17,163 nucleotides of DNA from Mycobacteriaceae bacterium (GTDB lineage: Bacteria > Actinomycetota > Actinomycetes > Mycobacteriales > Mycobacteriaceae), in the NCBI GenBank assembly GCA_019242135.1, contig JAFAWC010000021.1, positions 1 to 17,163 of the forward strand, given 5' to 3'. Positions 4,951 through 16,644 of this stretch are shown piece by piece. Positions within the stretch are counted from its first letter, which is position 1, and each line of letters opens with the position of its first letter. A model generated the notes under the pieces. It saw nothing but the letters and a program-made list of their open reading frames with translations, ran no database searches and was not told where the DNA came from. The position numbers and the translations under genes were made by a program.

Positions 4951-6006
4951 TCAGCCGAGCCAGCGGGCGACATCAGCGGCCCAATAGGTCAGCACGATGT
5001 CGGCGCCGGCGCGACGAATGCTGGTAAGCGTCTCCAGCGCGGCCGCGCGCCCGTCGATCCAGCCGTTGGCCGCCGCGGCGGTGATCATCGAGTACTCACC
5101 GGATACCTGGTAGGCGGCCACCGGCACCGGCGAGATTTCCGCCGCCGCTGCGACCACGTCCAGGTACGCCATCGCCGGTTTGACCAAGATGATGTCGGCG
5201 CCTTCGTCGATGTCCAGGGAGATCTCGTGCACCGCTTCGCGGGCGTTGCCCGGCTCCTGCTGATAGGTGCGCCGATCACCGGACAGGCTGGACGCCACCG
5301 CCTCCCGGAACGGACCGTAGAACGACGACGCGAATTTCGCGGCGTAGGCGAGGATGACGGTGTCGGTGTGTCCGGCAACGTCGAGTCCGTTGCGGATGGC
5401 CGCGACCTGGCCGTCCATCATGCCGCTTGGCGCCACCACGTGGGCGCCCGATTCTGCTTGTGTGACAGCCATCTCGACGTAGCGCTCGACTGTGGCGTCA
5501 TTGTCGACCCGAGCCGACCCGTCCAATATCCCGCAGTGACCGTGGTCAGTGAACTCGTCAAGGCAGGTGTCGGCCATCAACACTGTGGACTCACCGAGCT
5601 CCTTGCTCAGATCGCGTAAGGCGATGTTGAGGATCCCGTCGGCGTCGGAGCCGGCCGAGCCGACGGCGTCCTTGTCCTCGTCACGCGGCACCCCGAACAA
5701 CATGATGCCCCCGACCCCGGCGGCGACGGCGTCAACCGCAGCCCTGCGCAGCGTCTCGCGGGTGTGCTGTACCACGCCGGGCATCGACGCAATAGGAACC
5801 GGTTCGTCGATCCCGTCGGCGACGAACATCGGCAACACCAGATGCCTTGGCTCCAATGAGGTCTCTGCGACCAGCCGGCGCAGCGCCGGTGTCGCGCGCA
5901 GTCGGCGCGGCCGCTTGGGCAGAGACGTATGTCGCGATGAGCCGCTTGCGCGAAGAGCCTCAGCTGGCGATGAGCCGCTTGCGCGAAGAGCCTCAGCTCT
6001 AGCCAC
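4951..6006 (-). CDS. hemB: Delta-aminolevulinic acid dehydratase (porphobilinogen synthase)
   Basis: HemB condenses two 5-aminolevulinate molecules to porphobilinogen in the cytosol. The two Schiff-base lysines lie in AYAAKFASSFYGPFR (K224) and ILVKPAMAYLD (K276), and DGILN, SGMMDGQ and YQVSGEYSM are intact. The metal-site segment DTCLDEFTDHGHCG (146-159) has Cys, Asp, Cys where classical zinc enzymes have three Cys. At 351 residues it is about 20 longer than the M. tuberculosis protein I remember: residues 4-25 are two copies of an 11-residue unit (AEALRASGSS plus P or R) encoded by the 33-base tandem repeat. No ATG, GTG or TTG exists between the repeats and the conserved RPRRLR, so GTG at 6006, two bases after the hemD stop, is the only usable start. 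Confidence 0.97.
   Translation of the reverse strand: MARAEALRASGSSPAEALRASGSSRHTSLPKRPRRLRATPALRRLVAETSLEPRHLVLPMFVADGIDEPVPIASMPGVVQHTRETLRRAAVDAVAAGVGGIMLFGVPRDEDKDAVGSAGSDADGILNIALRDLSKELGESTVLMADTCLDEFTDHGHCGILDGSARVDNDATVERYVEMAVTQAESGAHVVAPSGMMDGQVAAIRNGLDVAGHTDTVILAYAAKFASSFYGPFREAVASSLSGDRRTYQQEPGNAREAVHEISLDIDEGADIILVKPAMAYLDVVAAAAEISPVPVAAYQVSGEYSMITAAAANGWIDGRAAALETLTSIRRAGADIVLTYWAADVARWLG
5934..5999. repeat. Tandem pair of 33-bp repeats inside the hemB 5' end
   Basis: Units 5934-5966 and 5967-5999 are identical for 32 of 33 bases. Each contains GATGAGCCGCTTGCGCGAAG on the plus strand, the same core as the pairs at 14356-14409 and 16262-16327 with one extra C. Read on the minus strand, each unit gives 11 residues of HemB. 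The element points opposite to the gene. Confidence 0.95.
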
Positions 6007-6008
6007 CG

Positions 6009-7640
6009 CTACCGCCTGCGGCTCTTCTTACGCGGCGGCGGCAGGGTCCCTTCTGCGCGCAGCCGAGCTGCGTGTTCGGCGAGCGCGTCCACCAGCGGTC
6101 CGATCGCCGCTGTCTCCGGCCGCACATCGACACGCAACCCGAATTCGGCTGCGGTCTCGGCGGTCTTCGGCCCGATGCATGCCACGATCGTGCGTGCGTG
6201 CGGCTTGCCCGCAATGCCCACGAGGTTGCGCACCGTCGAACTGGACGTGAAACAAACCGCGTCGAACCCACCGGACTTGATCATCTCCCGGGTCGAAGCC
6301 GGCGGCGGCGCCGCGCGCACCGTCCGGTATGCCGTCACATCCTCGATCTCCCAGCCGCGTTCGCGCAGTCCCTCGGCCAGCGTCTCGGTGGCGATGTCGG
6401 CGCGCGGCAGCAGCACCCGGTTCACCGGGTCGAAAACATCATCGTATGGCGGGAATTCGTCGAGCAGACCCAACGACGACTGTTCACCCGAGGGCACCAG
6501 CTCGGGTGTGATGCCGAACGCGCGGACCCGGTCCGCGGTGGCCTGCCCGACGCAAGCGATCTTGACACCGGAGAACGCACGGGCGTCGAGGCCGAACTCG
6601 CCGAACTTCTCCCACACCGCGCGCACCGCGTTGGTGGACGTGAAAACCACCCACTGGTAGCGCCCGTCGACGAGGCCCTTGACCGCCCGCTCCATCTGGG
6701 CCGGGCTGCGCGGCGGCTCGACGGCGATCGTCGGCACCTCGATCGGCACCGCGCCGTGCGCAATCAGCCGTTCGCTCATTTCGCCGGCCTGATCCTTGGT
6801 GCGCGGCACCAGCACCGTCCAGCCGTACAGCGCCCGGCTCTCCCACCAGTTCAGCTTCGACCGATTCGCCACTGTGCGGCCGATCGTCACGATGAGCGGC
6901 CCGGTCAGCGGGCCCGCAGGGTCGGCCGCGCCCAGGGCCGTGCTGTCGGTGAGCGTCTGCAGTGTCCCCTCGACCGACCGCTGCTGGGTGGTGGTGCCGT
7001 GCGCGGTGACCACGCACGGCGTGGCTTCATCCAGCCCGTAGTCGATCAGGATGCGGGCGGCCTCGCCGAGATGCTCGGCGGTGGCCTGCAATATCAGCGG
7101 GCCGGGCGCAGCCGCCAGCGCAGCCCAGTCCACCTCCCCGCGTACGTCGGCCACGGTGTGCGATGAGCCCAGAGGCAACCCGGCGTACGTCGGCACCCCG
7201 ATGCTGGCAGGCAGACCCGGCACGATTTCGAAGGCGAGGTGGGATTTGGCGACTGCCAGCACCTCGGCGATGACGGCGTCCACCGACAGCGCGTCGCCCG
7301 CGACCAGCCGGACCACGTCCGCGCCACCACGCGCCTCGGCGGCCAGCGTCTTGGCCACCTCGACGGGATCGCCCAGCGCCGGACGCACGTCGGGCACCGC
7401 GGGGAGCTCCGGGCTCACGGTGTCGTCGGTGAGACCGGGGTCCGGCGACGACAACTTCGGCGGCGCGGGCAGACTCGAGCCGATCAGCGCCAGCACCTCG
7501 GCTGGCACATCAGGATCGGTGAACACCACCTCGGCACACGCCAGTACCTCGCGCGCCCGACTGGTCAGGAGCCCGGGGTCCCCTGGCCCCGAGCCTACGA
7601 ACACGACGCGCCCCGGCTTGGCCTTGCGCCCTCGCGTCAT
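6009..7640 (-). CDS. hemD: Fused uroporphyrinogen-III C-methyltransferase-like domain and uroporphyrinogen-III synthase
   Basis: A 543-residue fusion. Residues about 10-260 are SUMT/CobA-like: VGSGPGDPGLLTSRA (15-29), EIVPGLPAS and GLPLGSSHTVADVR (138-167), and VTAHGTTTQQRS (211-222). Residues about 273-525 are HemD, which cyclises hydroxymethylbilane to uroporphyrinogen III, with VFTSTNAVRAVWEKF, IACVGQATADRVR and CFTSSSTVRNLVGIAG. In the first domain the usual RLKGGDPFVFGRG region reads RLVAGDALSVDAV and the domain carries a Pro/Ser-rich insert (about 57-87), so its methylation activity towards siroheme/cobalamin is uncertain. ATG 7640 (MTRGRK) is chosen from the remembered M. tuberculosis start; ATG 7664 adds eight residues. 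Either start overlaps, or lies 13 bases from, the hemC end. A basic tail (KKSRRR) ends it. Confidence 0.94.
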   Translation of the reverse strand: MTRGRKAKPGRVVFVGSGPGDPGLLTSRAREVLACAEVVFTDPDVPAEVLALIGSSLPAPPKLSSPDPGLTDDTVSPELPAVPDVRPALGDPVEVAKTLAAEARGGADVVRLVAGDALSVDAVIAEVLAVAKSHLAFEIVPGLPASIGVPTYAGLPLGSSHTVADVRGEVDWAALAAAPGPLILQATAEHLGEAARILIDYGLDEATPCVVTAHGTTTQQRSVEGTLQTLTDSTALGAADPAGPLTGPLIVTIGRTVANRSKLNWWESRALYGWTVLVPRTKDQAGEMSERLIAHGAVPIEVPTIAVEPPRSPAQMERAVKGLVDGRYQWVVFTSTNAVRAVWEKFGEFGLDARAFSGVKIACVGQATADRVRAFGITPELVPSGEQSSLGLLDEFPPYDDVFDPVNRVLLPRADIATETLAEGLRERGWEIEDVTAYRTVRAAPPPASTREMIKSGGFDAVCFTSSSTVRNLVGIAGKPHARTIVACIGPKTAETAAEFGLRVDVRPETAAIGPLVDALAEHAARLRAEGTLPPPRKKSRRR

Positions 7641-7653
7641 CCGTGCACCCCGC

Positions 7654-8580
7654 TCACTTCTCATTCATCAACTCGCGCGCGCCCAGTTCGAACAGCTCGG
7701 CGGCCACGGAGCGGCCAAGCTCCGCGGCCCGCCCGGGCGTTCCGACTCCGGACGCACGGATCACGTCGGATCCGTCCACTGTCGCCACGCAGCCGCGCAG
7801 CGACAGCTCCTCGAAGACGCGGCCATCCTCATCGATCGACTCGACCACTTCCGCGATCGCGCCAACCGGTGCGGAGCAACCCGCCTCCAGCTCGGCGAGC
7901 AGGGCTCGTTCCGCGGTGACCGCCGCGCGGGTGTCCGCATCGTCGAACTCCGCCAACAACGCCGCGAGCGTGGTGTTGTCGCTGCGGCATTCGACCGCGA
8001 GCGCACCCTGAGCCGGTGCGGGCAACATCTGCACCGGCTCGAGGGTCTCGGTGACATCGTCGAGGCGTCCGATGCGGGCCAACCCCGCCCGGGCCACCAC
8101 GATGCCGTCGAAATCACCGCTGCTCACCCTGTTCAACCTGGTATCAAGGTTGCCTCTTAGGGGGCGGATTTCCAAACCGAGACCCAATGCTCTAAGCTGT
8201 GCCACCCTGCGTGGGCTCGATGTGCCGATCACCGAGCCCACCGGCAACTCGCCGAGAACTAGGCCGTCCCGCGCCACCAGCGCGTCACGGGCGTCTTCGC
8301 GCGGCGGGACCGCCGCGATCACGAAACGCGGATCGGCCGCGGTCGGCAGGTCTTTGTAGGAGTGCACGGCCATATCGACGCGCCCCTGCGAGATCGCCTC
8401 CCGCAGCGCCGCCGTGAACACGCCGACACCGATCGTGGCGATCGGTTCGTCGGAGCGGTCGCCCTCGGTCGTGATCGTCACCAGTTCCGCGGCATGGCCC
8501 TTCGCGGTCAGCGCGTCTCTGATGGCACCCGCCTGGGTGGTGGCCAGCAAGCTGCCCCGGGTGCCGATCCGGATCGACAC
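7654..8580 (-). CDS. hemC: Hydroxymethylbilane synthase (porphobilinogen deaminase)
   Basis: HemC polymerises four porphobilinogens into hydroxymethylbilane. The 308-residue protein has the full family pattern: [13 protein letters not shown] (5-17), VHSYKDLPT with catalytic Asp77, [13 protein letters not shown] (119-131), RGNLDTRLN (142-150), [11 protein letters not shown] (188-197), and the dipyrromethane-attachment cysteine in [11 protein letters not shown] (C235). It starts with GTG at 8580, 25 bases after hemA, and its 3' end lies 13 bases before the preferred hemD start, so hemA-hemC-hemD form one transcript. Confidence 0.97.
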
Positions 8581-8605
8581 CCTAGGTGCTCTCGCTCATC
8601 GCCGG

Positions 8606-9946
8606 CTACCTCGGGGCTTCGGGGCCGTCGACGGCCTGCAGTTCCCCGGCCGCCACCGCGTCGACGGCCTGCGGGTCGAGTTCGAAGAGTTCGCGCAGCG
8701 CCTCGGCGTAGGTGTCGCCGCCCGGCGCGCTGGCCAGCTGCTTGACGCGAACGGTCGGGGCGTGCAGCAGCTTGTCGACCACGCGGCGCACGGTGCGGGC
8801 GACTTCTTCGCGCTGACCGTCGTCGAGCCCGGGCAGCCGGTTGTCCAGCCGCATCAGCTCCGCCTCGACAACGTCGGCCGCGCGTTGTCTCAGTGCGGTC
8901 ACCGTCGGGGTGACCTCGGCCATCCGCTGCAACGAAAGATATTGCGCCACTTCGGCGGCAACGATCGCGCGGGCGGCTTCGGCGTCGGCGGCGGCGGCAC
9001 GCGCGGACGGCTCGCGCTGGATCCGCTCCATGTCGATGACGAACACCCCGGGCAGGCCGGCGACCGCCGCGTCGACGTCGCGGGGCATGCCGACGTCGCA
9101 GATCACCAGCTGCCGCGGGTCGGTGCCGTGCGCCAAGCCGCGGTGCACGTCGGCCAGCGAGACCACCGGCCGCACCGCACCGGTACAGCAGACCACGACA
9201 TCGGCCTGGGCGAGCACCGTGGGCAGGCTGTCGAGCCCCGACGCGTCGGCGGGCACCCCGACGTCGCGGATGTTGTGGGCCAACCTCCGGGCGCGGGGCA
9301 GGGACCTGTTGACGATGTGAACCCGCCCGACGCCGGCACGCGCCAGGTGCTTGGCCGACAACGCCCCCATTGCGCCGGCTCCGACGACCACAGCGATGCG
9401 CCCGCCGAGGCCGTCCAGGCGCGTCTCGGCCATCCCGAGCGCGACCGACACCACCGAGGCGCCGACCGCATCGATGCTGGTCTCGGAGTGCACCCGCTTG
9501 CCCACCGAAAGCGCCTGCTGGGCGAGCTCGTGCAGAACCCGCCCGACTGTTTTGTTCGCCTCTGCGTGCGCGTAGGCGCGCCGAACCTGGCCCAGCACCT
9601 GCTGTTCGCCGACGACGGCGGAATCCAGGCCGCTGGCGACGGCGAACAGGTGCTCCACGGCCGCCTCCGCGTAACGCACGTACGCATACTTGGTCAAGTC
9701 ATTCAACGACATTCCGGAGTGCTCGGCGAGCACCTGCCCGATCACCGACAGGCCGCCGTGAAACGCATCCACGACCGCGTAGACCTCTACGCGGTTGCAC
9801 GTCGACAGCACCATCGCTTCGGTGATCAACGATGATTGCAAGAGCCGGTCGGCGATCTTCAGCTCGTCGGAGTCGTCAGTGCTCAACTGCTCGAGCACCG
9901 GTACTGGTGCGCTGCGATGCGACACCCCGAAGAGCAGCACGCTCAC
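8606..9946 (-). CDS. hemA: Glutamyl-tRNA reductase
   Basis: HemA reduces glutamyl-tRNA(Glu) to glutamate-1-semialdehyde with NADPH, the committed and usually feedback-controlled step of the C5 pathway. GTG at 9946 is chosen because [15 protein letters not shown] is the canonical N terminus; the frame is open upstream to 9997, but that runs through the hairpin at 9979-9996. The 446-residue protein has the catalytic cysteine in [11 protein letters not shown] (C50), [17 protein letters not shown] (106-122), the NADPH-binding [13 protein letters not shown] (187-199), GMPRDVD, and the C-terminal dimerisation domain with [20 protein letters not shown]. It lies 60 bases behind the glutaredoxin-like gene and leads hemC-hemD-hemB. 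Confidence 0.97.
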
Positions 9947-9978
9947 GGCTGAATCACCACGGTATCCACGGTAAACAA

Positions 9979-9996
9979 TGGTCGGTTGGCCGACCA
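9979..9996 (-). promoter_or_regulatory. Perfect hairpin between the glutaredoxin-like gene and hemA
   Basis: On the minus strand TGGTCGG, loop CCAA, CCGACCA form a 7-bp stem with a four-base loop, 33 bases before the hemA GTG and 10 bases after the preceding stop codon. The sequence after it is only modestly T-rich (TTGTTTACC), so it may be a weak terminator or attenuator, an mRNA processing or stability element, or a protein-binding site controlling hemA. The role is not determined. Confidence 0.5.
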
Positions 9997-10006
9997 AATC
10001 CTGGGT

Positions 10007-10264
10007 TCAGTCCCGAGCTAGATCGGCCCGCAACCGCGCCTCGTCGACCTCCCAGTAGCTGTGCTCGCGCCCGTCGAGCAGCACCACCGGAAGCCGGTCG
10101 CCGAATTGCGCGCGCAGCGCCGCGCTGCCCTGCCGCGCCTCGGCATCGACGTCGGTGACCGCGAATTCGAAACCCAGCTCTCCCGCCAACGAGGACAACC
10201 GTTGGCGGGCGCGCTCGCACATCGCGCAGCCGTCTCGCGTGAGCAACACCAGCCGCGGGTTCAC
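10007..10264 (-). CDS. Glutaredoxin-like / thioredoxin-fold protein (DUF836 type)
   Basis: An 85-residue protein with a thioredoxin fold: strand VNPRLVLLTR, CxxC at 13-16 (CAMC), a helix, then FAVTDVDAE, the LPVVLLDG strand with the expected cis-proline, and HSYWEVDEARLRADL. It probably acts as a small disulfide or mixed-disulfide reductase in the cytosol. From memory it corresponds to Rv0508, which also stands just before hemA. The GTG at 10264 is preferred: the frame is open to 10315, but that extension is made of the 30-base tandem repeats and has no family similarity. A -10-like GATACT ends 6 bases before the GTG, implying a leaderless message. It is the probable first gene of the heme operon. 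Confidence 0.85.
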   Translation of the reverse strand: MNPRLVLLTRDGCAMCERARQRLSSLAGELGFEFAVTDVDAEARQGSAALRAQFGDRLPVVLLDGREHSYWEVDEARLRADLARD

Positions 10265-10270
10265 GGGGCA

Positions 10271-10276
10271 AGTATC
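10271..10276 (-). promoter_or_regulatory. Probable -10 box upstream of the glutaredoxin-like gene and heme operon
   Basis: Minus-strand GATACT ends six bases before the GTG at 10264, so transcription would begin at the start codon itself. No Shine-Dalgarno is present, which supports a leaderless start. The -35 region falls inside the first 30-base repeat and shows no clear consensus. Confidence 0.45.
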
Positions 10277-10335
10277 CCCGCGCACGTGAGGAGCGAGACA
10301 GCAGCCCCCGCGCACGTGAGGAGCGAGATAGCGGC
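10276..10335. repeat. Tandem pair of 30-bp repeats between divergent genes
   Basis: Units 10276-10305 and 10306-10335 match at 28 of 30 bases; each begins CCCCGCGCACGTGAGGAGCG and contains the palindrome CACGTG. They occupy the gap between the glutaredoxin-like and serB1-like genes, directly against the glutaredoxin -10 box. The sequence differs from the GATGAGCGC repeats, though both are arranged as two adjacent copies. Confidence 0.95.
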
Positions 10336-10383
10336 CCCGGTGTCTTACTGTTGATCAGACCCTGAAACGGGCGGCGGGATCCT

Positions 10384-10389
10384 GGGAGG
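10384..10389 (+). promoter_or_regulatory. Shine-Dalgarno site deciding the serB1-like start
   Basis: GGGAGG lies six bases before the second of two consecutive GTG codons (10396) but only three before the first (10393), so the second GTG is the better start. Confidence 0.6.
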
Positions 10390-10395
10390 TGCGTG

Positions 10396-11295
10396 GTGAG
10401 CGACTGGCAGGACGTCGCAGGCGATGCCAGCGCGGAAGCCGCCGTCGCCGACCTCGCGGCCGAGGTCGCCCGCCACGCCGAACTCCCGGAGGTGGGACGG
10501 CCTGGGCCGCCGCCACCGCCGGCCGACCTGACCGCGGCGGCGTTCTTCGATGTCGACAACACGCTTGTGCAGGGGTCGTCGATGGTGCATTTCGCCCGCG
10601 GACTCGCCGCGCGCAAGTATTTCACCTACGGCAATCTGGTGCGATTCGTGTTCGCGCAGGCGAAGTTTCAGCTCACCGGCCGGGAGAACAGCGAGGATGT
10701 GGCCGCCGGGCGGCGTAAGGCGCTGGCGTTCATCGAAGGTAGACCGACGGCCGAGCTGGTGGCGCTGGGCGAGGAGATCTACGACGAGATCATCGCCGAC
10801 AAAATCTGGCCGGGGACGCAGGCGCTGGCCCAGATGCACCTGGACGCCGGCCAGCAGGTGTGGCTGGTCACCGCGACGCCGTATGAGCTGGCCAGCACGA
10901 TCGCCAAGCGGCTCGGTTTGACGGGCGCGCTGGGCACCATCGCCGAGTCCATCGACGGGGTGTTCACGGGTCGGCTGGTGGGCGACGTCTTGCACGGCAC
11001 CGGCAAGGCACATGCGGTGCGCTCGCTGGCGATCCGTGAGGGTTTCAACCTGAGGCGCTGCACGGCATACTCCGACAGCTACAACGACGTACCGATGCTG
11101 TCGCTGGTGGGCACCGCCGTCGCGATCAACCCCGACGGTGATCTGCGGGAGCTGGCCCGTGAGCGGGGCTGGGAGATCCGCGACTTTCGCACCGCGCGCA
11201 AGGCGGCCCGCATCGGTGTGCCGTCGGCGCTGGCCCTCGGTGCTGCCGGGGGCGCGCTGGCGGCGATCGCTTCGCGCCGCCACGACGCACGATGA
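10396..11295 (+). CDS. serB1: HAD-IB family phosphatase, SerB1-like
   Basis: A 299-residue HAD hydrolase of the SerB-like IB subfamily. Motif I is [12 protein letters not shown] with the nucleophile and acid at Asp52 and Asp54; motif II is VTATP (Thr159); the motif III lysine is in GTGKAHA (K204); motif IV is DSYNDVPML (Asp227, Asp231). The first 45 residues are a linker ending in a Pro-rich stretch. The last 25 residues ([19 protein letters not shown]) are hydrophobic, followed by SRRHDAR, which suggests a membrane anchor. In M. tuberculosis the locus is named serB1 (Rv0505c), but mycobacterial phosphoserine phosphatase activity is assigned to SerB2, so the substrate is open. It is divergent from the heme operon and co-directional with the hadD-like gene. 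Confidence 0.85.
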
Positions 11296-11326
11296 CTGGC
11301 ATCGCAGCCGGCTGAGCGTTCGCTGA

Positions 11327-11351
11327 TAGGCTGCGCCGCTAAAGCAGCCTA
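11327..11351 (+). promoter_or_regulatory. Perfect 8-bp-stem inverted repeat between serB1 and the hadD-like gene
   Basis: TAGGCTGC (11327-11334), nine-base loop, then GCAGCCTA (11344-11351), exact reverse complements. It lies 32 bases after the serB1 stop and 24 bases before the hadD-like ATG. The left arm contains TAGGCT, which fits a mycobacterial -10 box, so the element may be an operator over the downstream promoter. Alternatively it is a leader hairpin or a terminator without a T-run. Confidence 0.5.
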
Positions 11352-11375
11352 CGAGGGTGGAGAACAGGCGCAGTC

Positions 11376-11933
11376 ATGGCCATCGCCGAAGAAATCATCG
11401 GTACCCACTACCGTTACCCCGACTACTTCGCGGTCGACCGCGAGAAAATCCGCGAGTTCGCCCGCGCCGTCCAAGACGACCATCCCGCCCACTTCTCGGA
11501 GGACGCTGCCGCGGAGCTGGGTTACTCGGCGTTGGTCGCGTCGCTGACGTTCCTCACGGTGGCCGGCCGCAAGGTCCAGCTGGAGATCTTCGAGAAGTTC
11601 GATGTGCCGATCAACTTGGCTCGGGTCTTGCATCGCGACCAGAAGCTGACATTTCACCGGCCCGTCCTGGCCGGCGACAGGTTGTACTTTGATTCGTATC
11701 TGGATTCGGTGATCGAGTCGCACGGGACGGTGATCACGGAGATTCGCGGGGAGGTCACCGGCGCGGCGGGCGAGCCCATCATGACGAGTGTCGTCACGGT
11801 GATCGGCGAGGCGCTGCACGAGGGCGAACCCGATGAGGTCGTTTCCGCGATCGCTGCCCGCCGCGACGCCGCCATCGCGAAGGCGCTCGGTTCGAGCTCA
11901 GCCCAGAAAAGTGTTCCGCCGGTTGGCGAGTAG
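11376..11933 (+). CDS. hadD: HadD-like (UPF0336, MaoC N-terminal type) dehydratase-family protein
   Basis: A 185-residue single-hotdog protein related to the HadA/HadC subunits of mycobacterial FAS-II 3-hydroxyacyl-ACP dehydratase. Visible are [22 protein letters not shown] (8-29), the hydratase-like segment [17 protein letters not shown] (34-50), [22 protein letters not shown] and [15 protein letters not shown]. From memory it matches Rv0504c, whose M. smegmatis counterpart was named HadD and linked to mycolic acid synthesis. The hydratase motif keeps Asp and His but has His in place of the usual Asn (DxNPxH) and lacks the HG that follows in active enzymes, so it may need a catalytic partner. 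The C-terminal tail of about 25 residues ([22 protein letters not shown]) is longer than I remember and overlaps the convergent acyltransferase gene. Confidence 0.88.
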
Positions 11934-12965
11934 CCGGTACAGCGTCTGCTGGATGGTCTCGCGGACCTGGTCGGTGAGCTCGAAAGTGACCATCGGGTCC
12001 TCGGGCGCCGAGTCGTCGAAGTCAACGGTACGGATCGGTTCACCGAATTCGATGTGCCACTTTGACGGCAGCGGGATCATCCCGAGCGGTCCGGCCAGCG
12101 GGAATAGCGGCGTGATGGGAAAGTACGGCAAGCCGAACAGCCGGGCCAGCAGGCGCATGTCGCCGAGCATCGGATAGATCTCCTCGGATCCGACGATCGA
12201 GCACGGCACGATCGGCGCTCCGGTCCGCAACGCAGCCGAGACGAACCCGCCGCGTCCGAACCGCTGTAGCTTGTAGCGGTCCTTGAATCGCTTGCCGAGT
12301 CCCTTGTAGCCCTCGGGGAAGACGGCCGTGAGCTCACCCTTGGACAGCAGACGATGCGCGTCCGTGGTGCAGGCCATGGTGTGGCCCGCTCTGCGTGCGG
12401 CCTGACTGAGCACCGGGGTGTCGAACACCATGTCGGCAGCAAGCAGCCGCAATGAACGGCTCCCCGGATGCTTGTCGTGCACCCCGACGGCGGCCATCAG
12501 CCCGTCGAAAGGCAGCACTCCCGCGTGGTTGGCCACCACCAGGGCGGGTCCGGCCTCCGGCAGGTTCTCGATTCCGGTCACGTCGACGCGGAACCACGAC
12601 GTGAACAGCCTTCGTAGTAACGGCATCACGATCGCATCGTTGAAGTGCGGGTCGAACCCGAACTCGTCGACACTGTAGTCACCGGTGAAACGACGACGAA
12701 CGAACTCGGCGACCGCGCCTATCCGGCGGGCGAGCTCGTTGGGTTCGTCCGGCTTTTCTGGCACACCGCTCGCGGCGGTACGGTGCGCGTCGATCTCCCG
12801 GACGACCGCGGCCGTGTCCTCCGCTGAGGCGCCGCCGTCCGGATCGGCCAGCAACGAGGGATGTCGCCGGGCGGCGTCGGCACGCTGCCCGGCGCGTCGC
12901 TGCGCCGTGGCACGGCCCGGATTCCCGTGCAGCGGAATCACTTTGGCCCTGGGTTCACCCGCCAC
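11898..12965 (-). CDS. PlsC-like lysophospholipid acyltransferase family protein
   Basis: A 355-residue LPLAT-superfamily protein. After a polar, charged N-terminal region of about 75 residues come [20 protein letters not shown] (131-150), where catalytic His147 is followed by Asp154 (NHAGVLPFD, spacing HX6D rather than HX4D), FPEGYKG (216-222, the FPEGTRS motif) and [13 protein letters not shown] (250-262). It would transfer an acyl chain to a lysophospholipid or similar acceptor at the membrane; the acceptor is unknown. GTG at 12965 has a strong GGGGGAAGGG upstream. It follows the galE2-type gene by 35 bases (Rv0501-Rv0502 order, from memory). Its last 36 bases overlap the 3' end of the convergent hadD-like gene. 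Confidence 0.88.
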
Positions 12966-13000
12966 GGTTTTTACCCTTCCCCCGTCCGTTCACCCTTTGT

Positions 13001-14086
13001 CTAACTTCCCCACCGCTGCGCAGCAGCCACAGCACGACTCTCCAGTGAGCGTACCCATCGCGGATCGATGATCGGGGTCAGATTTCGACCGCGAAAATAG
13101 TCATCGAAGGCTTCGAGCGTAGTCCACTTAGGGCTGTAGCCGAGATCGACACGCATGCGCGTGGTGTCCATGACCCTGCCGTAGCTCAAGTAGTTCAACT
13201 GCTCGCGGTTTATCTCAGTGTAGTGATTTATCCGCCGAAGGGAATCCACCGCCCACACACCGAAACCGGGCACCGGCAGGGCGATCCGGCCTGCTCTGCG
13301 AATCGCTTGCGACATCATGATGATGCCGTCGGCGCCGATGTTGAACGTGCCGGCCCTGCCCGCCGTGGTACCGCGTTCCAGTGCACCCAACGCGTCCTGC
13401 TCATGTAGCAGCTGCAGCCGCGCGTCGCGTCCGAGCACGGTCGGCACGATGGGGCCGGTCAGGTAGCGCGACAGCGCAGTGTCCATCGCGGGACCGATCA
13501 GGTTGGCGAGCCGAAGAATGGTCACCGCGATGTCGGGACGACGCCGGCCCAGGCCGCGCGCATATCCCTCGATGTCGAGACTGTCTTGCGCGAAGCCCGT
13601 CCCGAGAGGCCGGCGGCTCGTGCAGTCTTCGGTGAACACCACTGGGTCATGCGGGCTGGAGCCGTACACCTCTGAGGTGGACTTAAGCACCACACGGCGC
13701 ACCGACGGCGCCTTCTGGCAGGCCGCGAACAGCTGCATCGCGCCCATCACGTTGAGTTCCTTCAGCGTGGCGCGCCCGCCCGACGGCGCGTACGACGCCG
13801 CGGCGGCGTGCACGACGGTGTCCACATCGTTGTGGCGAATGACTTTTGCGATGAAGGGGTTTCGGATGTCGGCGCGGACGAACTCCGCACGTCCCATCCG
13901 GCGCAGCAAGTCCTTGCTCGGCGCGATCGCATCCACCGCGATCACGCGGTTGATCAGCGGGTTCTGGGCCAACCGAGCGGTCAGGTAGCCGCCGAGAAAG
14001 CGGCACGCGCCCGTAACCAACACCACTTTCGGGAAGTGCACGGCGTCGCCGTCCTGGGGACCGCCTCGCTGACCGGCCGAATCCAT
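13001..14086 (-). CDS. galE2: Extended-SDR NAD-dependent epimerase/dehydratase family protein, GalE2-like
   Basis: A 361-residue extended SDR protein close to mycobacterial GalE2 (Rv0501, from memory). A Rossmann fold opens with PKVVLVTGACRFLGGYL (19-35); VVHAAAASYAP, LNVMGAMQLFAAC and KSTSEVYGSS (135-144) follow the family order. Two family hallmarks are altered. The TGxxGxxG motif reads TGACRFLG, with Arg29 for the middle glycine. The YxxxK catalytic pair reads FAQDS (165-169), Phe for Tyr and Ser for Lys. The same replacements occur in the M. tuberculosis protein as I remember it, so this is a stable feature rather than decay. The gene is therefore unlikely to be an ordinary UDP-galactose epimerase. 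It lies upstream of, and probably co-transcribed with, the acyltransferase. Confidence 0.88.
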   Translation of the reverse strand: MDSAGQRGGPQDGDAVHFPKVVLVTGACRFLGGYLTARLAQNPLINRVIAVDAIAPSKDLLRRMGRAEFVRADIRNPFIAKVIRHNDVDTVVHAAAASYAPSGGRATLKELNVMGAMQLFAACQKAPSVRRVVLKSTSEVYGSSPHDPVVFTEDCTSRRPLGTGFAQDSLDIEGYARGLGRRRPDIAVTILRLANLIGPAMDTALSRYLTGPIVPTVLGRDARLQLLHEQDALGALERGTTAGRAGTFNIGADGIIMMSQAIRRAGRIALPVPGFGVWAVDSLRRINHYTEINREQLNYLSYGRVMDTTRMRVDLGYSPKWTTLEAFDDYFRGRNLTPIIDPRWVRSLESRAVAAAQRWGS

Positions 14087-14145
14087 CCTGACAGCCTAAC
14101 GACGACCGCCGCGCGTGGCATATCGGCTCCGGCGCGCTGCACGCC

Positions 14146-14160
14146 GCTCTTCGCGCAACG
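14146..14160. repeat. Possible single, partial copy of the GATGAGCGC repeat
   Basis: GCTCTTCGCGCAACG matches, on the minus strand, the TTGCGCGAAGAGC half of the repeat found at 14356-14409 (13 bases identical). It lies in the 92-base gap between bS22 and galE2. It may be a decayed copy or a chance match. Confidence 0.35.
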
Positions 14161-14178
14161 TGCCCGTCATCGGTCGGT

Positions 14179-14280
14179 TTACTTGCCGAGTTTTCTGCGC
14201 TGAACCCGGGTGCGTCGAAGCAGCTTGCGGTGCTTCTTCTTGGACATACGCTTGCGGCGCTTTTTGATGACTGAACCCAT
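14179..14280 (-). CDS. 30S ribosomal protein bS22 (AURKAIP1/COX24-type)
   Basis: A 33-residue, extremely basic protein beginning [18 protein letters not shown] and ending RRKLGK, with about half its residues Lys or Arg. It matches the small ribosomal protein bS22 recognised in structures of mycobacterial ribosomes (Rv0500B in M. tuberculosis, from memory), which shares a domain with mitochondrial COX24/AURKAIP1. The ATG at 14280 is preceded by GGTAGG at 11-16 bases upstream. It lies between the HTH gene and galE2, each gap about 90-140 bases, so it may have its own promoter. Confidence 0.93.
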
Positions 14281-14320
14281 AAACTTCGCTACCTACCATT
14301 GCCTCTCACCGGACCGGGCC

Positions 14321-14326
14321 ACCTTA
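14321..14326 (-). promoter_or_regulatory. Possible -10 box for bS22
   Basis: Minus-strand TAAGGT fits TAnnnT and would give a leader of about 35 bases before the bS22 ATG. No clear -35 element is seen, and the assignment rests only on position and pattern. Confidence 0.25.
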
Positions 14327-14355
14327 CCCGGGTCGCGCGGGAGAAACGAAAACCG

Positions 14356-14409
14356 CCCGATGAGCGCTTGCGCGAAGAGCATGGGCCCCGATGAGCGCTT
14401 GCGCGAAGA
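14356..14409. repeat. Tandem pair of 31-bp-spaced repeats upstream of bS22
   Basis: The core GATGAGCGCTTGCGCGAAGA, preceded by CCC, occurs at 14356-14378 and 14387-14409, identical over 23 bases and spaced 31 bases apart. The pair lies between the stop codon of the HTH gene and the bS22 promoter region. The same core forms the pairs inside hemB and the thioesterase gene. Confidence 0.95.
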
Positions 14410-14418
14410 CCACCCCGC

Positions 14419-14676
14419 TTAGCTGACGTCGAAGTACGACGTCTCAAGCATGTCGTGCACCGCCTTTGCGTGCACGCGAAACGACCGGCCCACGCGAACC
14501 GCCGGCAATTCGCCGTTATGCACCAGGCGGTAGACCGTCATCTTGCTGACGCGCATCAAGCTCGCCACCTCGGCCACCGTCAAAAATTGAGCCCTGGCCG
14601 GCTGAACGTCGGCAGCGCCGGAATCCCGCTTGCTGTTTGCCGACTCCCGCCCCGATGGCCCGTTCGTTGACGTCAT
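14419..14676 (-). CDS. Excisionase-type (MerR-like) helix-turn-helix DNA-binding protein
   Basis: An 85-residue protein with a disordered, charged first 28 residues followed by the compact winged HTH of the excisionase/HTH_17 family: FLTVAEVASLMRVSKMTVYR (31-50), LVHNGELPAVRVGRSFRVH (51-69), then a short C-terminal helix. Despite the name this family includes many chromosomal regulators, and no phage genes are nearby. It sits between proC and bS22 as in M. tuberculosis (Rv0500A, from memory). Target unknown. Confidence 0.85.
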   Translation of the reverse strand: MTSTNGPSGRESANSKRDSGAADVQPARAQFLTVAEVASLMRVSKMTVYRLVHNGELPAVRVGRSFRVHAKAVHDMLETSYFDVS

Positions 14677-14752
14677 CGCAACCCAATCCGTCAGGCACGG
14701 CCAGGGCCAGCAGCTTCCCCTGCGCTGGCACGAACGCGTGCATACATCGAGG

Positions 14753-14758
14753 AGAATA
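14753..14758 (-). promoter_or_regulatory. Possible -10 box for the HTH gene
   Basis: Minus-strand TATTCT in the 139-base gap between proC and the HTH gene fits the TAnnnT pattern and would give a leader of about 70 bases. No strong -35 is seen. The rest of the gap shows nothing recognisable. Confidence 0.3.
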
Positions 14759-14815
14759 GCGGTACAGGTGGGGTTACTGCGACGGGTGTTGGCTAATCCA
14801 TCGAAAATTGATGAA

Positions 14816-15658
14816 CTACTCTGATGTAATTCCTAGCTGGCCAGCACGGTTTTTCGCAGCCGCCACCGCGGCTCCAACCGCCGCCCGAAAGCCCGCGCGC
14901 TCGAGTTCGGCCAACCCGGCCGCCGTAGTGCCCGCCGGGGACGTGATCGTAGCCCGCAGCCGCGCCGCAGTCGTGTCGAGTTCGGTCGAACCGCTGTTCA
15001 TGCGCTCCAGCAGCATCGCCGCCGATCCGGCCATGGTCTGCACCGCGAGGTCGGTAGAAACGGCGCGGCTCAGCCCGGCCGCAACGCCGGCGTCGACCAG
15101 CGCCTCGACCATGAGGAAAAAGTACGCGGGCCCAGACCCCGACACCGCCGTCACCGCGTCGAGCTGCGACTCCGGCACCGTCAGCACGCCGCCGACCGCA
15201 TCGAACACCGCCGAGACGTCTTTGAGCTGCTCCTGGGTGGCGAACCGGCCCTTGGCCATCGCGCTGATGCCGGCACCGACGACCATCGGCGCGTTGGGCA
15301 TCACCCGGATGACGGCAACACCCGCGGGCAGCTTCGCCTCGTAGTACGCGGTGCTGACACCGGCGACGACGGTGATGAACACCTGCTCGGCGGCCTTCGC
15401 GCGTGCGACCGCGTCGGCGATCTCCTCCGTCACCGACGCCACATCGGACGGCTTGACCGCCACAACGACGAAGTCGGCGTTCTCGACGGCGTCGGCGGTG
15501 GTGGTCACCAGCACGGAGTAGGTCTCGGACAGGTAGCGCGCACGCGCGCTGACACGTTCGGCGACCACAATGTCCCCGGCCTGCCGGCCAGATCGCAGCA
15601 GGCCAGACAGCAGCGCCTCACCGATGTTTCCGCCGCCGACGATTGCGATTCTGGACAC
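14816..15658 (-). CDS. proC: Pyrroline-5-carboxylate reductase
   Basis: ProC reduces 1-pyrroline-5-carboxylate to proline with NAD(P)H, the last step of proline synthesis. The 280-residue protein begins with the dinucleotide-binding MSRIAIVGGGNIGEALLSGL (1-20) and has VVVAVKPSDV (68-77), the family motif MPNAPMVVGAG, and the C-terminal signature region SGSGPAYFFLMVEALVDAGV followed by AGLSRAVSTDLAVQTMAGSA. Length is normal for the family. The GTG at 15658 places the glycine-rich loop at the correct distance. It is separated from the upstream thioesterase by 89 bases containing a hairpin. Confidence 0.97.
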   Translation of the reverse strand: MSRIAIVGGGNIGEALLSGLLRSGRQAGDIVVAERVSARARYLSETYSVLVTTTADAVENADFVVVAVKPSDVASVTEEIADAVARAKAAEQVFITVVAGVSTAYYEAKLPAGVAVIRVMPNAPMVVGAGISAMAKGRFATQEQLKDVSAVFDAVGGVLTVPESQLDAVTAVSGSGPAYFFLMVEALVDAGVAAGLSRAVSTDLAVQTMAGSAAMLLERMNSGSTELDTTAARLRATITSPAGTTAAGLAELERAGFRAAVGAAVAAAKNRAGQLGITSE

Positions 15659-15680
15659 GGCAGCAGCATGCCAGGTCCGG

Positions 15681-15712
15681 CGGCCAGGAGCGATGGGGGT
15701 CCCTCCCGGCCG
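15681..15712 (-). repeat. Imperfect hairpin between the thioesterase gene and proC
   Basis: CGGCC (15681-15685) pairs with GGCCG (15708-15712), and GGAG (15687-15690) with CTCC (15703-15706), leaving one mismatch and a 12-base loop that can itself pair GG with CC. It lies 23 bases upstream of the proC GTG. No T-run follows on either strand, so it is not a clear terminator; a leader structure or dispersed palindromic element is possible. Confidence 0.4.
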
Positions 15713-15747
15713 AGGCGCAGGCGGATGACTCGAAGATGCGCGCCAAC

Positions 15748-16644
15748 TCAGTGATCGGGCACCAGCGCCAGCTGACGGGTCTGCACGATGATGCGGCCCT
15801 CACAGTCCACGACGAGATGGTCCTCGTCGAACCAGTCCTGTCCGATCTGGGTGGTCGTGGCCATCACCCGCAGCCAGCCATCGGCGGGAAGGCCACGCAG
15901 ATACGCGGTCAGCTGCACAGTCGGCGCCCACCCCCGGCGGCCCACCGCGAACGCGACGGGCGGCGAGACGTCCCCGCACATCAACGCGAACAGGATGTCG
16001 GGAGGCGTCCCGCGCGGCCGGGCCCAGATTTGAATCACCGGCGCCCTGCCATCCGGCGACGGCCCGTCCGGAACGGTGGACATCAGCGGGCGGACATCCA
16101 CACCTCGCCAATAGTTCACGGTGCCGTACATGGGGTGTCCGGGCCCGATCGGCTCGACGTCGGGCGGCGGTTCAGGGCTCATCACCGAGGCGAGCGGATT
16201 GGCGGACAGCAGCGGGGGGACCAGGTGCTCGGGCTCGCCCAGTGTCACCACCGCATGCACGGCTGATTTCTGCTCTTCGCGCGAACGCTCATCGCGAGAT
16301 TCCTGCTCATTGCGCGAGCGCTCATCGCGCACCCGCTCCCCTCCGATCAGCTCGACGTCGACCACGCTGACCCTGCGGCCCCGCTTGCGCACGAAGGTTT
16401 CCAGCCTCATCTCCCCCGGATTCGGCGCCGACAGGTAGTTCGCGGACACCGAAATCGGCTGCACGGACCCGCCGTGCGCCGCGCGGGCGGCGGCCGCGCA
16501 CAGCGCCAGCATGGCGCCGCCGTGCACCTTCGGCCCAATGGTCCAGTGCTTGTTCAACTCACCCGCATACGCGCCGTCGCCGAGCGGCCGCACCGCCATC
16601 GCGTCGGAGAACGCCGCATCAGAAATCGGAGTGGATTCAGCCAT
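15748..16644 (-). CDS. TesB-like double-hotdog acyl-CoA thioesterase family protein
   Basis: A 298-residue protein of the thioesterase/TesB-like family (Rv0499 position, from memory), which hydrolyses acyl-CoA or related thioesters. The first hotdog includes HWTIGPKVHGGAMLALCAAAAR (33-54), SVSANYLSAPNPGEMRLE (65-82) and RGRRVSVVDVELI. The second includes PVIQIWARPRG and GWAPTVQLTAYLRGLPADGWLRV. Between the strand ending ELIGGERV and the strand AVHAVVTLG lie two 11-residue repeats (106-116 and 117-127, RDERSRxEQxS type) encoded by the 33-base tandem repeat. They should extend a surface loop without breaking the fold. The substrate is unknown. It starts 12 bases after the isomerase-like gene, so the two are co-transcribed. 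Confidence 0.85.
   Translation of the reverse strand: MAESTPISDAAFSDAMAVRPLGDGAYAGELNKHWTIGPKVHGGAMLALCAAAARAAHGGSVQPISVSANYLSAPNPGEMRLETFVRKRGRRVSVVDVELIGGERVRDERSRNEQESRDERSREEQKSAVHAVVTLGEPEHLVPPLLSANPLASVMSPEPPPDVEPIGPGHPMYGTVNYWRGVDVRPLMSTVPDGPSPDGRAPVIQIWARPRGTPPDILFALMCGDVSPPVAFAVGRRGWAPTVQLTAYLRGLPADGWLRVMATTTQIGQDWFDEDHLVVDCEGRIIVQTRQLALVPDH
16262..16327. repeat. Tandem pair of 33-bp repeats inside the thioesterase gene
   Basis: On the minus strand, units 16327-16295 and 16294-16262 begin CGATGAGCGCTCGCGC and CGATGAGCGTTCGCGC, period 33 bases, with several differences between copies. The core is the same as in the hemB and bS22 loci, but here the element runs in the direction of the gene, and each unit encodes 11 residues. 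Confidence 0.88.

Follow-up and report, generated by a model that had tools for sequence, protein, structure and literature searches.

The stretch of DNA analysed here (17,163 nucleotides, hereafter the window) is contig 6 of a 724-contig draft genome (3.8 Mb, 84% complete) of a Mycobacteriaceae bacterium, hereafter the source genome. It contains three tandem pairs of a repeat of about 32 letters, with periods of 33, 31 and 33, distributed as follows:

4951..6006, minus strand: gene that we take, from its sequence, to be hemB (delta-aminolevulinic acid dehydratase), with pair 1 as an N-terminal extension
5934..5999, plus strand: pair 1, cores 5936-5956 and 5969-5989, period 33
14356..14412, plus strand: pair 2, cores 14359-14378 and 14390-14409, both exact, period 31
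15748..16644, minus strand: presumed thioesterase-like gene, which contains pair 3
16262..16329, minus strand: pair 3, cores 16307-16326 (first) and 16274-16293 (second), period 33

A scan of the window located all three pairs where the preliminary description had placed them, and the two peptides that it had derived from one DNA element, AEALRASGSS (antisense, in hemB) and DERSRxEQ (sense, in the thioesterase), are correct reading frames. Pair 1, read antisense and in frame, falls in the N-terminal region of hemB, right after the GTG start (6004-6006); each of its cores has one extra C in the inner stem (GATGAGCCGCTTGCGCGAAGA), and its flanks (gc..gc) are paired. Pair 2 is intergenic and antisense to its neighbours, about 10 nt beyond the stop of a small helix-turn-helix-like gene called on the minus strand. 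Pair 3 is sense and in frame (DERSRNEQESRDERSREEQ) within the thioesterase-like protein, with two mismatches in 16274-16293 and three in 16307-16326. At up to three mismatches the window has four matches to the core, as against none in 200 dinucleotide shuffles. A known RNA family was rejected: in six sources (the window and five loci) Rfam gave nothing at gathering score, and the one sub-threshold match, at 5349-5425 of the window, is off the repeat. A tandem pair of another 30-nt unit (CCCCGCGCACGTGAGGAGCGAGAYAGCRGC) is located between divergent genes at 10276-10335, and GTGAGGAGCGAG within this unit resembles part of the long unit of a second family of the order (f2, locus L430).

The core is dispersed well beyond the window. 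The source genome has 93 matches (up to three mismatches) and none to the reversed-pattern control, in agreement with the earlier proposal of a small dispersed, amplifying element that is sometimes tolerated in frame. At up to two mismatches, at least one match occurs in 111 of 148 genomes of the genus and none in the other 37, with counts from 0 to 132 (132 in G122, 111 in G026, 108 in G144, 90 in G078 and 89 in the source genome in this survey). In the sample of the order, 72 of 249 genomes have matches, many of them single or weak, and matches to the reversed pattern are rare and single; amplified copies are present in three other families (f2, f6 and f12; for example 34 in G308, 28 in G289 and 16 in G252). 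A tolerant unit scan (at most one mismatch across the two loop strands, at least three of the four inner-stem pairs) was run on loci selected for containing the core. It gave 85 distinct units in 172 kb from the source genome (none in the reversed sequence); from the named contigs, 610 kb in all, it gave 190 (one in the reversed sequence). Among the matches listed, the titles of dimer-bearing contigs are nearly all Mycobacterium, Mycolicibacterium or Mycobacteroides. One dimer is on a contig titled Candidatus Melainabacteria (L045), which is possibly a mis-binned mycobacterial contig. Phage and plasmid collections gave no match to a 60-nt dimer query, a weak test with so short a query, and no polarity along the chromosome was seen by eye in partial match lists of genus genomes. 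No description of the repeat was found among the matches listed from the open-access literature.

What the earlier reading missed is that the unit forms an inverted repeat, its arms covarying, and has a micro-ORF that could relay translation. Each unit has a 20-nt inverted-repeat core, NN-GATGA-GCGC-TY-GCGC-GAAGA-N'N' (in its wider form NN-GAYGA-GCGC-TY-GCGC-GARGA-N'N'), followed by a tail of about 10 nt that, in the source-genome copies with their flanks, is common within an array and different between loci. The claim that the element always lands as a dimer, and with it an obligate dimer, was discarded: with five further arrays at contig edges left out, the 55 arrays of the source genome comprise 32 single, 19 double, 3 triple and 1 quadruple. 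Periods are mostly 30-35 in Mycobacterium, and between genes 32 is the commonest (24 of 43 in three genomes). The proposed rule that the period is a multiple of three in genes and not between them holds as a tendency in these genomes (all six short periods within called genes, and 16 of the 43 between genes, are such multiples), but fails for the antisense arrays inside genes of the named-contig set, where gene calls are approximate and only 2 of 6 are multiples of three.

The ATG within GATGA begins a micro-ORF of about 11 codons (MSA[C/R]AK...). The commonest core variant, TT or TC in the loop, exchanges Cys for Arg in this micro-ORF, and so the nucleotides rather than the micro-peptide seem to be conserved. 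A GACGA..GAGGA subfamily has been amplified although its ATG is lost, and still forms arrays of three and four (G178:C38:9372 and G184:C2:5560410). In family f2 tandem copies are spaced by 80-98 nt, and the core is read in a DERSREE frame within a longer mini-ORF; one f2 locus (L427) has four copies within what its sequence leads us to regard as a ribosomal-protein gene cluster.

The core-flanking bases pair across the core in the set of 270 distinct exact-loop units. To quantify covariation we used only the first units of arrays, in 229 distinct contexts from all available loci. Watson-Crick pairs are formed at -1/+1 in 211 of 229 (123.5 expected) and at -2/+2 in 150 (107.3 expected); within the internal loop, the central Y/R pair is matched in 224 (201.4 expected). 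In 5000 permutations no value was as high as any of these three, which overstate independence since the permutation ignores relatedness; the -1 and -2 bases are, however, locus-specific. At -3/+3 pairing is below expectation (15 against 42.3). Within three genomes the -1/+1 pair is formed in 54/58, 32/35 and 32/34 units (raw counts); here, first units with T at -1 have an A after the core in 16 of 19 cases, as against 3 of 108 for those without this T. The central pair of first units is T-A in 213 and C-G in 10, with zero T-G and C-A; the 166 later units include two T-G and one C-A, and the order-level list at least five copies with a single change in this pair. Part of the explanation for the C-G type could be that it is synonymous in the DERSREE frame.

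RNA pairing is not favoured by the mismatch counts, because G.T and A.C are about equally rare at -1/+1 (7 and 5 of 229) and A.C exceeds G.T at -2/+2 (19 and 4 of the first units). Of the units folded as RNA, both of the TT type have the proposed hairpin as their minimum-energy fold and the TC-type unit does not; no fold exceeds its shuffles in stability (z of 0.55, 0.12 and -0.06); with DNA folding parameters the hairpin is not predicted. The data may fit a conserved RNA, a single-stranded DNA or a double-stranded recognition site alike.

To place the repeat relative to genes we used 124 arrays from match lists at up to two mismatches, 55 from the source genome (a draft, with three edge cases left out), 35 from G184 and 34 from G224 (both near-complete, less one place). 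These replace position counts from named contigs, which were biased because the scan pattern required GATGAGCG after the core. Genes were called with a custom codon-usage caller whose starts are imprecise, for example at hemB; for this reason we took overlaps from the sequence itself, using the frames of the called genes. The repeat shows a preference for junctions of co-directional genes, in sense orientation: 74 of 124 arrays are so placed (20/55, 28/35 and 26/34 in the source genome, G184 and G224), and 8 lie in the opposite orientation between such genes. The stop of the upstream gene overlaps the ATG of the first unit, as ATGA or TGATG, in 54 arrays (16, 18 and 20 in the same order), and the TGA of the unit ORF overlaps the downstream start by 4 nt in 40 (9, 13 and 18), the source genome being the weakest of the three in this respect, with 9 of its 55 arrays. 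Only 16 of the 124 arrays are inside called genes, 6 of them antisense. Thus enzyme interiors, where two of the three window pairs are located as had been described, are not the commonest habitat, and the hemB and thioesterase copies are in-frame insertions in a minority habitat of the repeat family.

Comparison of species reveals gain and loss. Units are present in one species and missing in the other in pairs such as L098/L116 and, at about 87-96% flank identity, G178/G184. At L371, G178 has a unit where G184 has ACCGACGAGCGG, with ACCGACGAGCG at both ends of the insert and unalignable sequence just beyond; at L367 the unit of G184 is flanked by CCCTGAGCGGYT repeats, of which G178 has one copy, and the adjoining left flank differs. 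These two cases have direct repeats of about 11-12 nt, each with one unaligned flank, and in the 30-nt gain between L098 and L116 a clear direct repeat was not found. The orthologue comparison that had been proposed to find exact insertion borders thus reveals gain and loss, but clean empty sites are few and the borders untidy. When the bases that precede an array were compared with those that follow it, the excess pointing to target duplication was modest and confined to positions -1 to -6 (79 of 190 arrays usable).

The insertion point in the thioesterase is recurrent, with a scan-detected unit in 6 of 30 fetched orthologue loci, ours included, and a decayed unit in one further locus (L152). 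At the hemB junction, where several of the 29 other fetched loci hold other inserts, and at the site of pair 2, again with 29 other loci, scanning detected no further unit. Several unrelated palindrome-like inserts of up to about 100 nt occur in different species at the hemD-hemB junction (L178-L206), which looks like an insertion hot spot. At a junction that we assign to mltG and aroE (30 loci), L270 has an ATGA overlap and no unit, several other loci have one to three units, and further loci have repeats with other letters, in some cases on the same GATGA-hairpin-GAAGA plan. Five loci at this junction (L258, L260, L264, L265 and L268) have a tandem repeat of about 24 nt (GATAGGCGGCCCGCCGCCGTGCCC) with letters unrelated to the core. 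A superfamily of differently lettered GATGA-hairpin-GAAGA elements was considered and rejected, as such elements are not dispersed (family C in 3 and family B in 4 of 148 genomes); a strict scan, which detected one array of three units in 400 kb of a genome rich in A copies, found no B copies in 400 kb of a B-bearing genome.

Mycobacterial interspersed repetitive units (MIRUs) reportedly go back to Supply et al. in 1997. We consider that the repeat described here is probably a miniature, MIRU-like interspersed element, placed in trans at start codons with translational coupling. In the proposed mechanism, the ATG within GATGA would start a micro-ORF at the junction, and GAAGAGCAG/GAAGAGGAG after this start, which resembles a ribosome-binding site, would serve the next start 8-9 nt on. 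With a period of 32 the TGA of the micro-ORF would overlap the ATG of the next unit or gene as ATGA; in this way an insertion would convert gene1-ATGA-gene2 to gene1-ATGA-(unit)n-ATGA-gene2 with translational coupling preserved. By recognising the core, either folded or as an inverted repeat, a trans-acting activity would place copies at existing GAYGAG-like sites, and slippage or recombination would then lengthen and shorten the arrays. Copies inside genes, such as those at the two window loci, would persist where the frame stays open, and the flanking genes are probably still readable around the repeat, given its own start and stop signals. No enzyme moving the repeat was found, and Y1_Tnp (PF01797) is absent from the source genome, G122 and G026.

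Compared with MIRUs by description, length and behaviour, the repeat works like a MIRU and is not classed as one. In the passages cited here, MIRUs are interspersed tandem repeats of mycobacteria with variable copy number (PMC12548453, PMC3914561, PMC2734929), and appear mobile, inserting at start codons and coupling an internal ORF to the next gene with a -4 nt overlap (2025 translational-coupling article, PMC12548453). Our repeat is likewise interspersed, often tandem and variable in copy number in mycobacteria, and shares the co-directional junctions and the -4 overlap for part of its arrays. It differs in unit length, which is 30-35 bp in Mycobacterium against the 46-101 bp given for MIRUs (PMC3914561), and in its covarying core, which the cited MIRU passages do not mention. 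One other family has units of 80-98 bp built on this core. MIRUs of senX3-regX3 are described as restricted to M. leprae and the M. tuberculosis complex (PMC4213456). On our reading, if it is right, translation starts are rewired, with operons left unbroken, by a minimal structured repeat that is present in many genomes of Mycobacterium and in parts of the order; this repeat adds many micro-ORFs and shifts gene starts and protein lengths. It would also be a small, tractable model for the spread of MIRU-type elements, with no enzyme for this named in the cited passages.

Target-side and unit-side bases covary, which suggests that target pairing may help to choose the insertion site. A stronger version, to which we give a small chance, is that the element is guide-matched: the 3' arm (GARGA-N'N') would pair with a target NN-GAYGA, and insertion would occur where a joint hairpin forms. 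Base pairing would then select stop/start overlaps (ATGA or TGATG), and would explain the A after the core with T before it and the T-A/C-G switch of the central pair. If true, this would be an enzyme-less (in cis), structure-guided micro-element landing on start codons.

It is unlikely that the repeat is instead an immobile cis-regulatory RNA hairpin, selected at particular operons to control translation initiation. Such a role would suit a start codon and ribosome-binding-like sequence in the internal loop, the mostly sense placement immediately upstream of genes, and the GATGA-hairpin-GAAGA plan that several species retain with different letters at mltG-aroE. However, 16 of 124 arrays are inside genes, 6 of them antisense, presence varies between close species, and the identity of the genes gives the impression of being arbitrary; in addition, the six sources have no Rfam match at gathering score, there is no G.U excess and the fold is not unusually stable.

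A mutational origin, by local tandem duplication and quasi-palindrome correction through template switching, with the core arising at ATGAGC gene starts, is in our view very unlikely. Template switching makes compensatory changes in a single step, GATGAGC is common to target and unit, and arrays expand and contract, all of which this origin would accommodate. An identical 20-mer at unrelated loci, antisense, in genes and across families is nevertheless hard to generate locally, and the arms retain G.A mismatches that correction would remove.

It is also very unlikely that the repeat is a REP/RAYT or IS200/IS605-type hairpin mobilised by a Y1 HUH transposase. REP elements are short, palindromic, many-copy and non-autonomous, with a conserved 5' tetranucleotide beside the palindromic core. 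Our repeat is also a short imperfect palindrome in many copies with no enzyme-coding capacity; its covariation between target side and element side recalls guide/target pairing, and the copy-rich G078 (90 copies) and G144 (108 copies, a weak match) have partial Y1_Tnp matches. Matches to Y1_Tnp are nevertheless limited to 26 of 148 genomes, and G122, G026 and the source genome have none, so that a Y1/RAYT transposase was rejected as the mover. The position table has no GTAG-type flank, the arrays are direct and not inverted pairs, and the location at start codons sets the repeat apart.

Rickettsia palindromic elements, of about 100-150 bp, are also tolerated in frame inside genes, as some of our copies are, but are much longer, and here genes are the minority habitat (16/124 arrays). 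The palindromic amphipathic repeat coding element of Mollicutes and others is, as described in the cited passage, likewise a palindromic element spread among genes, and differs by that description in coding repeat proteins (PMC2996958).

That the repeat is no element and reflects only the codon usage of conserved protein segments (DERLREE-like) is hardly credible: although in that frame the variants of GACGAGCGCTTGCGCGAGGA are synonymous, and ordinary coding sequence may account for some of the single copies, the 93 matches against 0 in the control, the 108 of 124 arrays outside called genes, the commonest intergenic period of 32 and the presence or absence between orthologues, including thioesterase loci without the pair, contradict such an artefact, which was rejected.

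The same arrangement is found in other families. In L436, L437, L438 and L439 the upstream stop is at +5 and the downstream start lies exactly one further period of 32 on, and L435 has the upstream overlap only. In L439, from a distant relative, 19 consecutive 32-nt units lie between two genes, with micro-ORFs that overlap by ATGA; the first of these genes has its end at +5 and the second its start at 609 (18 × 32 + 33), a 19-unit relay that would be an extreme test of translational coupling.
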